A stretch of 64,000 bases of DNA from Sulfurihydrogenibium subterraneum DSM 15120 (GTDB lineage Bacteria > Aquificota > Aquificia > Aquificales > Hydrogenothermaceae), in contig NZ_JHUV01000011.1 in NCBI RefSeq assembly GCF_000619805.1, positions 1-64,000 of the forward strand, in the 5' to 3' direction. The notes under the pieces were generated by a model. It ran no database searches, had not been told where the DNA came from, and was given only the letters and a program-made list of their open reading frames with translations. The translations under genes were made by a program, and so were the position numbers. Shown piece after piece: positions 18,873-21,425 of this stretch (position 1 is its first letter; every line of letters starts with the position of its first letter).

Positions 18873-19199
18873 ATGGCAGAGTTTAGACACGTTTTTGTAT
18901 GTATGCAAAGAAAACCACCAGGAATGCCTTCCTGTGGCGACAAAGGTTCAGACCAGATTTTTATGAAATTCCAAGAAGCTCTTATGACAAAGGGACTTTT
19001 TAACAAAATGGCTGTTACTGCAACTGGTTGTTTAGGTCCTTGTATGTTCGGTCCAAACGTTGTTGTTTATCCTGATGCTATATGGTACGGTAATGTAACT
19101 CCTGCTGATGTTGAAGAAATAGTCCAAAAACACATAATAGAAGGTCAACCAGTAGAAAGACTCATAGTATCAAAAGGTAAACCACCAGGAATGTTTTAA
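18873..19199 (+). CDS. Thioredoxin-like [2Fe-2S] ferredoxin
   Basis: Small electron carrier with a thioredoxin fold, like Aquifex Fd4 and the NuoE C-terminal domain. The four cluster cysteines are Cys10 and Cys21 (VCMQRKPPGMPSCG) and Cys53 and Cys57 (GCLGPCMFG). The C terminus VSKGKPPGMF is nearly the Aquifex version. The 108-residue length fits. A strong AGGAGGA site lies at 18859-18865. It is monocistronic, with a terminator hairpin right after it. The redox partner is not shown by context. Confidence 0.94.
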   Translation: MAEFRHVFVCMQRKPPGMPSCGDKGSDQIFMKFQEALMTKGLFNKMAVTATGCLGPCMFGPNVVVYPDAIWYGNVTPADVEEIVQKHIIEGQPVERLIVSKGKPPGMF

Positions 19200-19207
19200 C
19201 TCTTAAA

Positions 19208-19227
19208 AGGGTAGCTGGAGCTACCCT
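19208..19227 (+). terminator. Terminator hairpin after the ferredoxin gene
   Basis: AGGGTAGCT and AGCTACCCT form a perfect 9-bp inverted repeat around GG, 8 bp after the ferredoxin stop. The following AATTTCTCACC is only moderately T-rich, so efficiency is uncertain. Confidence 0.7.
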
Positions 19228-19326
19228 AATTTCTCACCTTAATTACTCTTTACTTTCATAACTTTCAAAAAATAAAAATCAAACAATTATTACACCTCAA
19301 CAGTAAAAATTAATACAATTTTATAC

Positions 19327-19391
19327 TGTCAACAAACCTGTTTATAACCTGTTGATAAACTGTTCATATCATGTTGATAACATGTCGACAA
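19327..19391 (-). repeat. 11-bp-phased array of six DnaA-box-like 9-mers
   Basis: Six 9-mers start at 19327, 19339, 19350, 19361, 19372 and 19383: TGTCAACAA, TGTTTATAA, TGTTGATAA, TGTTCATAT, TGTTGATAA and TGTCGACAA. Spacing is 12, 11, 11, 11, 11 bp, about one helical turn, so all sites face the same side. The shared pattern is TGTYNAYA plus a final A or T, the complement of TTATCNACA-like boxes. Confidence 0.7.
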
Positions 19392-19660
19392 CTTATAGAT
19401 TAATTTTTTTCAGTTAAAGGGAGAAATTAAAAAGTGTGAAGTTATCGACAATCTATAAACAAAAATTAGAAAAAAAATTTTTTATAAATTTCCATAACTT
19501 ATAAATTTTTAAACGGTTAAGTACATGTAAAAAGCACAAAAAAATATAAATAGGTTATCAACAGGAAAAAACTGAAAAGAACCATTATAAGATAAGGGTT
19601 TATATAGTTATCAACATTTTTTTATCCCTATTATTCTTCTTATTATTATTTATATATATC
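19327..19660. other. Candidate chromosomal replication origin (oriC) in a 515-bp gene-free region
   Basis: Between the ferredoxin and the next gene (19200-19715) there is no credible coding frame. Exact copies of TTATCAACA, a one-base variant of the DnaA box TTATCCACA, occur on the minus strand at 19350-19358 and 19372-19380 and on the plus strand at 19555-19563 and 19608-19616. TTATCGACA occurs at 19442-19450. The left copies and right copies point in opposite directions. Very AT-rich stretches (19465-19510 and 19629-19660) could be unwinding elements. dnaA is not adjacent. The surrounding gene orientation (plus on the left, much minus on the right) is not the usual co-directional pattern, which lowers confidence. 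Confidence 0.55.
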
Positions 19661-19715
19661 TTAACTTGTCTATTTAAAGTATAATAATAAAACAAAAATA
19701 AAGATAGGATATAAG

Positions 19716-20291
19716 ATGGTAGAAAACTTAAAAAAGGAACTTCTAAGCTTAAAAGAAAAAGTTAACATTAGATACAAAACTTTAGAAGAAAGCGATTTTG
19801 AAAAATTTTTAAAAGAGATTTCTCAAGAAAACAGATTCATAACTTTACAAAAAGACGACTCTTTAGATGAAGAGCCTATTTTCTATATTGAAAAAGATAA
19901 CATATCAATTAAATTCTTAGGAAGAATATCAGGCGGAGAAGTTAAATCATTTTTAGATAGTTTAAAGATAGTGGCAAACAATGAGCATAACATTTCAGAC
20001 AGAGTTATTGAGTTTGCTGAAGAAATAGATAAGCCTGTGGATATAAAATTGTTTACTACAAACTCTTGTGGGTGGTGTCATCCTGCTATTTTAAAAGCTG
20101 TTAGTTTTTCAGTAGTTAATCCAAATATTAAAGTAAGTATAATAGATTGTTATTCTTTTCCTGACTTGGCTATGAAGTACAATGTTTCTACTGTTCCAAA
20201 AACTGTAATAAATGATAGGGTGGAGTTTGTTGGTGTTAAAGATGACAGTGAGTTTTTTGGATACATAGTTAAAGCGTTAGGAGAAGTGTAA
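19716..20291 (+). CDS. Thioredoxin/glutaredoxin-like disulfide oxidoreductase (one-site PDO type)
   Basis: The 191-residue length and layout resemble the two-domain protein disulfide oxidoreductases of thermophiles. Only the C-terminal half has a redox site, Cys118-Gly-Trp-Cys121 (TNSCGWCHPA), with the cis-Pro loop VSTVPKTVI about 36 residues later. The N-terminal half keeps the fold-like ending SGGEVKSFLDSL but no CxxC. It may maintain cytoplasmic disulfides or reduce partners. The gene directly follows the DnaA-box region, and dxr begins 4 bp after its stop. Confidence 0.82.
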   Translation: MVENLKKELLSLKEKVNIRYKTLEESDFEKFLKEISQENRFITLQKDDSLDEEPIFYIEKDNISIKFLGRISGGEVKSFLDSLKIVANNEHNISDRVIEFAEEIDKPVDIKLFTTNSCGWCHPAILKAVSFSVVNPNIKVSIIDCYSFPDLAMKYNVSTVPKTVINDRVEFVGVKDDSEFFGYIVKALGEV

Positions 20292-20294
20292 AAG

Positions 20295-21425
20295 TTGATA
20301 GAAATTGGTGTGCTTGGTTCTACTGGTTCTGTAGGTACACAAGTTTTAGATATTGTAAGAAAAAATAAAGACAAAATAAAAGTAAAACTTTTAGGAGCTT
20401 CAAAACCATCAGAAACTCTTCTATCCCAGATAGAAGAGTTTAATCCTGATTACGTATATATTGAAAATGGAAATATATCAAAAAATCTAAAAAATACACA
20501 AGTCTTTATTGGTAAGGAAAGTCTTGACTTTTTAAAAGATTTAAAATTAGACCTTTTTATAATAGCAATAGCTGGAGTAAAGGGGATAAGACCTACTTAT
20601 ATACTTCTTGAAAGTAATAAAAAAGTTGCTACGGCAAATAAGGAAGCTATAATCTGTCTGGGAGAGCTTGAAAAAGGTAAGTATAAAAATATAATTCCTA
20701 TAGATAGTGAACACTCTGCTATATTTCAAGTCATAGATAGAAGACCGTTAGATGATATAAGAAGGATAGTATTAACAGCTTCTGGAGGACCATTTTTAAA
20801 TTTACCTTTAGAAGAACTTAAGAATGTTAGTATTCAGCAAACCCTTAACCATCCAAGATGGAGTATGGGAAAGAAGATTTCTGTAGATAGTGCTACGTTA
20901 ATAAATAAAGGATTTGAAGTTATAGAAGCCCATTACTTGTTTGACATACCTTACGAAAAAATTGATGTAGTAATACATCCTGAAAGCATAATTCACGGTA
21001 TGGTTGAATACATAGACGGAACTGTTATAGCTAATCTGTCTAACCCTGATATGAGAATACCTATATCTTACGCTATCTTTTACCCTGAAAGAAAATATAT
21101 CAATAATAACTATTTAGATTTTACAAAACTAAAAAGTCTTAACTTTCTAAGTCCTGATTATGAAAAATTTCCTCTTTTAAAAGTTGCAATTGAGTGTGGT
21201 AAAAAAGCAGGTGTATATCCAACAACCTTGACAATGGCAGATGAAGTTGCAGTAAATCTTTACTTACAAGGTAAAATAAAATTTTTAGATATATACAAAA
21301 TAGTTATAGAAGTTGTAGAAAGTATTAAGGATTATAGTATAAATAACGTTCAAGACCTTTTAGATTTTATTGATTACGTTGAAAAATACTCGTTGTCGGT
21401 AGCAAAAAAATATGGAAGTTCTTGA
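20295..21425 (+). CDS. dxr: 1-deoxy-D-xylulose 5-phosphate reductoisomerase
   Basis: Second step of the MEP isoprenoid pathway, forming 2-C-methylerythritol 4-phosphate with NADPH. The N-terminal GVLGSTGSVGTQ binds NADPH. Catalytic-domain motifs are TANKEAI, PIDSEHSAIFQ, LTASGGPF, HPRWSMGKKISVDSATLINKG and the substrate-loop region. The 376-residue length is normal. It starts at TTG 20295 and overlaps the LysR gene by 14 bp. ispE of the same pathway is at 58052. Confidence 0.95.
   Translation: MIEIGVLGSTGSVGTQVLDIVRKNKDKIKVKLLGASKPSETLLSQIEEFNPDYVYIENGNISKNLKNTQVFIGKESLDFLKDLKLDLFIIAIAGVKGIRPTYILLESNKKVATANKEAIICLGELEKGKYKNIIPIDSEHSAIFQVIDRRPLDDIRRIVLTASGGPFLNLPLEELKNVSIQQTLNHPRWSMGKKISVDSATLINKGFEVIEAHYLFDIPYEKIDVVIHPESIIHGMVEYIDGTVIANLSNPDMRIPISYAIFYPERKYINNNYLDFTKLKSLNFLSPDYEKFPLLKVAIECGKKAGVYPTTLTMADEVAVNLYLQGKIKFLDIYKIVIEVVESIKDYSINNVQDLLDFIDYVEKYSLSVAKKYGSS

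Follow-up and report, generated by a model that had tools for sequence, protein, structure and literature searches.

Purine-6 DnaA boxes at a likely chromosome origin of Sulfurihydrogenibium subterraneum and their co-variation with DnaA residue 433

The window is the whole stretch of DNA analysed, 64,000 nucleotides long, and corresponds to C11:1-64000 of the Sulfurihydrogenibium subterraneum genome (G000; 1.61 Mb in 16 contigs), which was searched by pattern in its entirety. Within it, an intergenic stretch at 19200-19715, between a ferredoxin-like gene and a gene pair for a thioredoxin-fold protein and dxr (Trx-dxr), holds putative DnaA boxes in two opposed arms together with the following features:

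18873..19199, + strand: (2Fe-2S) ferredoxin-like protein, left-hand neighbour (family assignment)
19327..19391, - strand: left arm, six predicted DnaA boxes phased at 11-12 bp (sequence, shuffles and genome pattern search)
19442-19450 and 19453-19461, + strand: right-arm box TTATCGACA and, 11 bp on, its degenerate neighbour CTATAAACA, opposite to the left arm
19462..19550, no strand: spacer separating the arms, AT-rich with about 15-23% G+C (sequence, composition)
19555..19563, + strand: right-arm box TTATCAACA (aligned box in relatives)
19608..19616, + strand: right-arm box TTATCAACA beside the trios (aligned box in relatives; module pattern match)
19627..19651, + strand: CCC and the trio-like run CTA TTA TTC TTC TTA TTA TTA TTT, candidate DnaA-dependent melting site
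19716..20291, + strand: thioredoxin-fold protein (Thioredoxin_3), right-hand neighbour, a syntenic origin marker in the genus and in G014
20295..21425, + strand: dxr, second syntenic marker (gene-context comparison)

On the + strand, the 9-mers of the left arm are TGTCAACAA at 19327, TGTTTATAA at 19339, TGTTGATAA at 19350, TGTTCATAT at 19361, TGTTGATAA at 19372 and TGTCGACAA at 19383. Read on the - strand they become TTGTTGACA, TTATAAACA, TTATCAACA, ATATGAACA, TTATCAACA and TTGTCGACA, with G, A, A, A, A and G at position 6. An earlier note on this DNA had listed six such 9-mers at spacings of 12, 11, 11, 11 and 11 bp, and re-reading of the sequence gave the same starts and spacings; the pattern TGTYNAYA(A/T) that it proposed is matched by 6/6, two of them being exact TGTTGATAA as it had said. 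With at least three boxes in the same orientation and 2-bp gaps, the arm has the composition of a phased filament array. The longest chain of boxes at 10-12 bp steps was six in the window and at most two in 300 dinucleotide-preserving shuffles. Moreover, a three-box 11-bp pattern found 19339-19391 as its sole place in the 1.61-Mb genome, and its reversed-pattern control found none. Pairs of TTATNNACA at 11 bp with at most one mismatch occurred at eight places genome-wide, five of them in the array region, which also holds the genome's single perfect TTATNNACA pair at 11 bp and its single pair of TTATCAACA within 30 bp. The note had asked whether this is the densest cluster of the genome, and the array was the only phased cluster that genome pattern searches found, a DnaA-box cluster exceptional in its genome as expected of oriC. 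Three features had escaped the note: the right-hand boxes of opposite orientation, the trio-like module at 19608-19651, and the A or G that every box has at position 6.

The note had known of no array of this form described in Aquificales. Arrays at 11 bp were found in 35/112 Aquificales, compared with 1/112 for the reversed control (positions 5 and 6 were left free in the pattern), and a spacing of 11 bp, with 2 bp between 9-mers, is reported in PMC8235120, citing Rozgaja 2011, as an optimum for DnaA filaments; hence the array form alone is not new. The same source cites Rozgaja et al. 2011 for two oppositely oriented arrays of low-affinity DnaA sites with 2-bp gaps in Escherichia coli oriC. 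The present locus resembles these in its opposed DnaA-site arrays, its 11-bp register and the flanking of an origin core, but its boxes are near the organism's consensus and have a purine at position 6, and Trx-dxr adjoins the origin. Judged from the boxes themselves, the novel feature is this purine and not the phasing. The description of the 9-mers as DnaA-box-like stands, whereas their treatment as ordinary TTATCCACA-type boxes through a loose matrix does not, position 6 being a purine here and C in E. coli.

The region 19395-19654 has 15-23% G+C, which by composition only qualifies it as a candidate AT-rich unwinding region. Downstream of the box at 19608 come TTTTTTTATCC and then CTATTATTCTTCTTATTATTATTT. 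In Bacillus subtilis and many other bacteria, a basal unwinding system consists of a DnaA box, a GC cluster and DnaA-trios (PMC8287927, PMC10201434, PMC7561715). We required a box within about 16 bp of the GC cluster and at least three correctly oriented trios whose middle base is invariant, and all of these are present at 19608-19651, where box, CCC and TTA-trios form the only match to the strict pattern in the window. Order and orientation are shared with the known system, as are the TTATCAACA box, the CCC and the CTA/TTA-type trios; the differences are that the trios are mostly TTA and not CTA, that the box has A6, and that a longer gap of 10 bp precedes CCC. The module is kept in five other species of the genus (G034-G038), the origin of G034 having a looser trio run, and the strict pattern had no match in 795 kb of G034. 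In a scan of the region for sigma-70-type promoters, matches were no more frequent than in shuffles.

The layout is conserved. At the same site, 11 boxes follow one another every 11 bp in G034, and opposite them are two tandem pairs plus one box; G037 has seven boxes; and G035 has a similar array interrupted by a contig end. G038 and G036, of the same genus, have clusters of TTATCCACA-type boxes (C at position 6, C6) ahead of Trx-dxr, those of G036 being degenerate, and a C6 cluster likewise lies upstream of Trx-dxr in G014, which belongs to another genus. This gene pair is therefore preceded by a box cluster in six species of Sulfurihydrogenibium and in G014; clusters of other genera are situated elsewhere. 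In G036:C1:493400-494000 (L065, L181), repeated variants TGTGATTAA, TGTGAATAA and TGTGTATAA take the place of clean boxes, which may mark an array that is decaying or has been relaxed. Among the other Aquificales, the DnaA of G041 is near-identical to PDB 1l8q, which places G041 close to Aquifex aeolicus.

These comparisons bear on two other explanations of the repeats. Iterons typically consist of phased direct repeats, and the array might then come from a plasmid, or from an integrated element, that encodes a Rep protein of its own. We regard this as highly improbable: the six neighbouring genes checked belong to housekeeping families with no Rep among them, the repeats fit the DnaA-box pattern and have changed in step with the DnaA of the chromosome, and synteny of the site extends across species and to one other genus. 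Alternatively, the site may bind DnaA without being an origin, as a titration or regulatory cluster (compare E. coli datA and the mioC promoter) controlling the thioredoxin-dxr genes. Such a role would suit its position, which in several species and in one other genus is immediately ahead of Trx-dxr, and an origin is not confirmed by GC skew: the skew is noisy in G034, of which 795 kb were sampled (trough at 0-290 kb, site at 153 kb), and likewise in G016 (about 414 kb sampled), and it does not single out the site. However, a regulator of this kind would not account for opposed phased arms with an AT-rich spacer and a trio module, or for the site being the sole phased cluster found in the genome, and other Aquificales have one comparable cluster in other gene contexts, which fits an origin and not a Trx regulator; we therefore consider it unlikely. 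The gene dnaA is not adjacent, lying on a different contig in G000 and 544 kb off in G034 (adjacency is common and not required), and no DnaA boxes of note were seen around it in either genome. Taken together, anatomy, uniqueness, conservation and co-variation with DnaA make the array very probably part of the chromosome origin, oriC.

The E. coli DnaA box is TTWTNCACA, in which position 5 is free and position 6 is C (PMC5835720). Every origin box of G000 has A or G at position 6, and C6 occurs in 0/8. Over G000, G034, G035 and G037, position 6 is a purine in 43/45 origin boxes (33 A, 10 G, 1 T, 1 C; p = 1.4e-10 relative to the same-motif background in these genomes, which is 52% purine and rich in T6), so that the canonical C is found in 1/45 boxes of four species, while position 5 is variable. 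The DnaA proteins of these four species read KKNHST, compared with KKDHTT in relatives, placing Asn at the equivalent of E. coli Asp433 instead of the canonical Asp; sister species with C6 boxes have Asp433. This residue contacts bases and is highly conserved among bacteria (PMC8235120, PMC7561715), and it has been assigned to box position 7, not 6 (PMC8235120). The canonical box and domain IV are otherwise recognisable in length, the TTRT...ACA frame, the free position 5, His434 and Thr436; what differs is the purine for C at position 6 and the Asn for Asp433. Column 433 is the only column of domain IV that separates purine-6 from C6 genomes. The neighbouring change T435S was rejected as a specificity residue, because DHST also occurs in C6 genomes (G015, G016).

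Position 6 and residue 433 co-vary across the order as well. Residue 433 could be read in 101/112 Aquificales DnaA proteins, being Asp in 86, Asn in 6, Ser in 5, His in 3 and Gly in 1. Purine-6 arrays were found in five of the six Asn433 genomes and in 0/95 of the others (Fisher p = 7.6e-8, kinship ignored); the sixth Asn433 genome, G090, showed no cluster within the 206 kb read. The reading of the locus as a phased DnaA array thus gains from its uniqueness in the genome, its conservation in relatives and the co-variation of its boxes with the DnaA recognition helix. Our main reading, to which we give a probability of roughly 80%, is that the array forms one arm of oriC composed of putative DnaA sites, and that initiator and boxes have changed together in this lineage.

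Other residues at this column were also met. One genus (G031-G033; DnaA L164, L166, L167; L138) has His433 (KHHTT); its boxes have remained C6, and several read TTATGCACA, with G at position 5. A whole further genus (G070-G074; L216, L217, L415, L417, L418) has Ser433 (KSHSS); it yielded no phased DnaA array and so may use a rather different box.

The Sulfurihydrogenibium cases form one clade, and A6 is frequent in an AT-rich background, so purine-6 boxes and Asn433 might be by-products of AT-drift or shared ancestry with DnaA specificity unchanged. The composition of the arrays does not follow such drift, since they contain almost no T6, the most frequent base of the G034 background, and are enriched in G6, and C6 is kept in AT-rich relatives with Asp433. 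Moreover, the boxes are tracked by column 433 alone, and G046, of a different family, shifted to G6 independently and gained Asn too: it has TTATCGACA boxes, purine-6 in 8/8, and Asn433, whereas TTATCCACA arrays go with Asp433 in its congeners G042, G044, G045 and G047. A DnaA tree from which domain IV was left out shows two separate gains of Asn433, and placing the five genomes in one group was rejected (AU p = 3.1e-8; G046 has a long branch). The switch arose at least twice in Aquificales. One combination of A6 boxes with Asp433, in G120, speaks for the drift or ancestry explanation, which on balance we think improbable, though a shade less so than the regulatory cluster considered above.

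A co-ordinated change of DnaA and its boxes may extend to other phyla. Purine-6 arrays were scanned in one genome per species of 84,980 species, and at least eight Poribacteria have purine-6-rich arrays, with Asn433 in 8/8 among the matches listed; these genomes were chosen by their boxes, so that only one direction of the link between box and residue was tested there. Several of the listed Poribacteria show TTATCAACA-GCCCC-TACTACTACTACTA, a clear trio module. It seems fairly probable that the code has been rewritten repeatedly, with Asp433 replaced by Asn (perhaps also by Ser or Thr) along with an origin-wide change from C6 to purine, twice in Aquificales and again in Poribacteria. In the Poribacteria bin G119, contig C292 (L359) encodes a second domain IV of DnaA that again has Asn433 (GGKNHST); it may stem from contamination or represent an additional Asn433 lineage.

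The rule has exceptions. Among the matches listed, the clearest is the array of G120 (uncultured proteobacterium RUG14087), with Asp433 and nine boxes that are all A6. This array (L270 6191-6292) is a near-perfect palindrome in which four TTATCAACA at 11 bp face four more. At least three genomes with Asp433 (G121, G122, G124) have mixed A6/C6 boxes, and in the Poribacteria among the matches listed 23/83 boxes are C6, mostly TTATGCACA or TTATCCACA and some beside trios. Purine-6 clusters that are candidate origins also occur, among the matches listed, with Ser433 (G123) and Thr433 (G125, G134). Since A6 boxes and mixed boxes are found with Asp433, C6 boxes persist in Poribacteria and G090 lacks a cluster in the part read, residue 433 is not the sole determinant; it looks like a strong determinant within a soft rule.

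Purine-6 arrays in at least 17 other genomes were set aside, many being coding repeats or weak three-box matches, but the exceptions with Asp433 were retained as evidence against the rule. In Allobacillus (L275 1691-1993 and L268 4004-4243), TTRTCRACA is repeated 12-16 times in tandem, one copy every 21 bp, in DNA that appears to be non-coding; these arrays are probably a different repeat system. The single genome of Parabacteroides sp. PF5-6 (L218, L253, L254, L274, L277, L279, L283) has many dispersed, interleaved inverted TTATCAACA repeats at 9-, 13- and 22-bp steps, which look like a mobile or dispersed family.

According to the working that we propose, DnaA-ATP would bind the six same-facing left boxes and the opposing right-hand boxes and form filaments in both arms, with about one protomer per 11 bp. 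The trio module beside the box at 19608 would then be melted, DnaA would engage the single-stranded trios, and the helicase would be loaded there. The boxes would read TTRTNRACA and not TTWTNCACA because the DnaA recognition helix has Asn for Asp433. As a proposal from general chemistry, the amino groups of C6 or A7 could each donate a hydrogen bond to the carboxylate of Asp, whereas Asn433 could also donate to N7 of a position-6 purine. We infer residue 433 as the cause of the specificity change from this co-variation, as we infer DnaA binding, unwinding and origin firing from the layout.

Lineage-specific boxes have been described before, including AAACCTACCACC of Thermotoga and TTTTCCACA of cyanobacteria (PMC10225481). 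The present boxes are likewise lineage-specific; unlike those, one base class changes here, tracking one residue of the recognition helix, and more than once independently. In the literature searched, no paper named D433N together with DnaA or linked Sulfurihydrogenibium to DnaA boxes, and TTATCAACA appeared among DnaA boxes in one paper, where it is a lone box predicted in Cyanothece.

A code between initiator and origin that is usually near-invariant thus seems, from these sequence comparisons, to have been rewritten in this lineage and independently in at least one other. Origin finders built on TTATCCACA may overlook or mis-rank such origins, and a possible route to orthogonal DnaA-origin pairs is suggested. 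Because initiator and boxes changed together among close relatives while the syntenic position stayed the same, direct tests of how initiator specificity evolves become possible, with a hypothesis that comes down to one residue, 433, and one base, position 6 of TTATCNACA.
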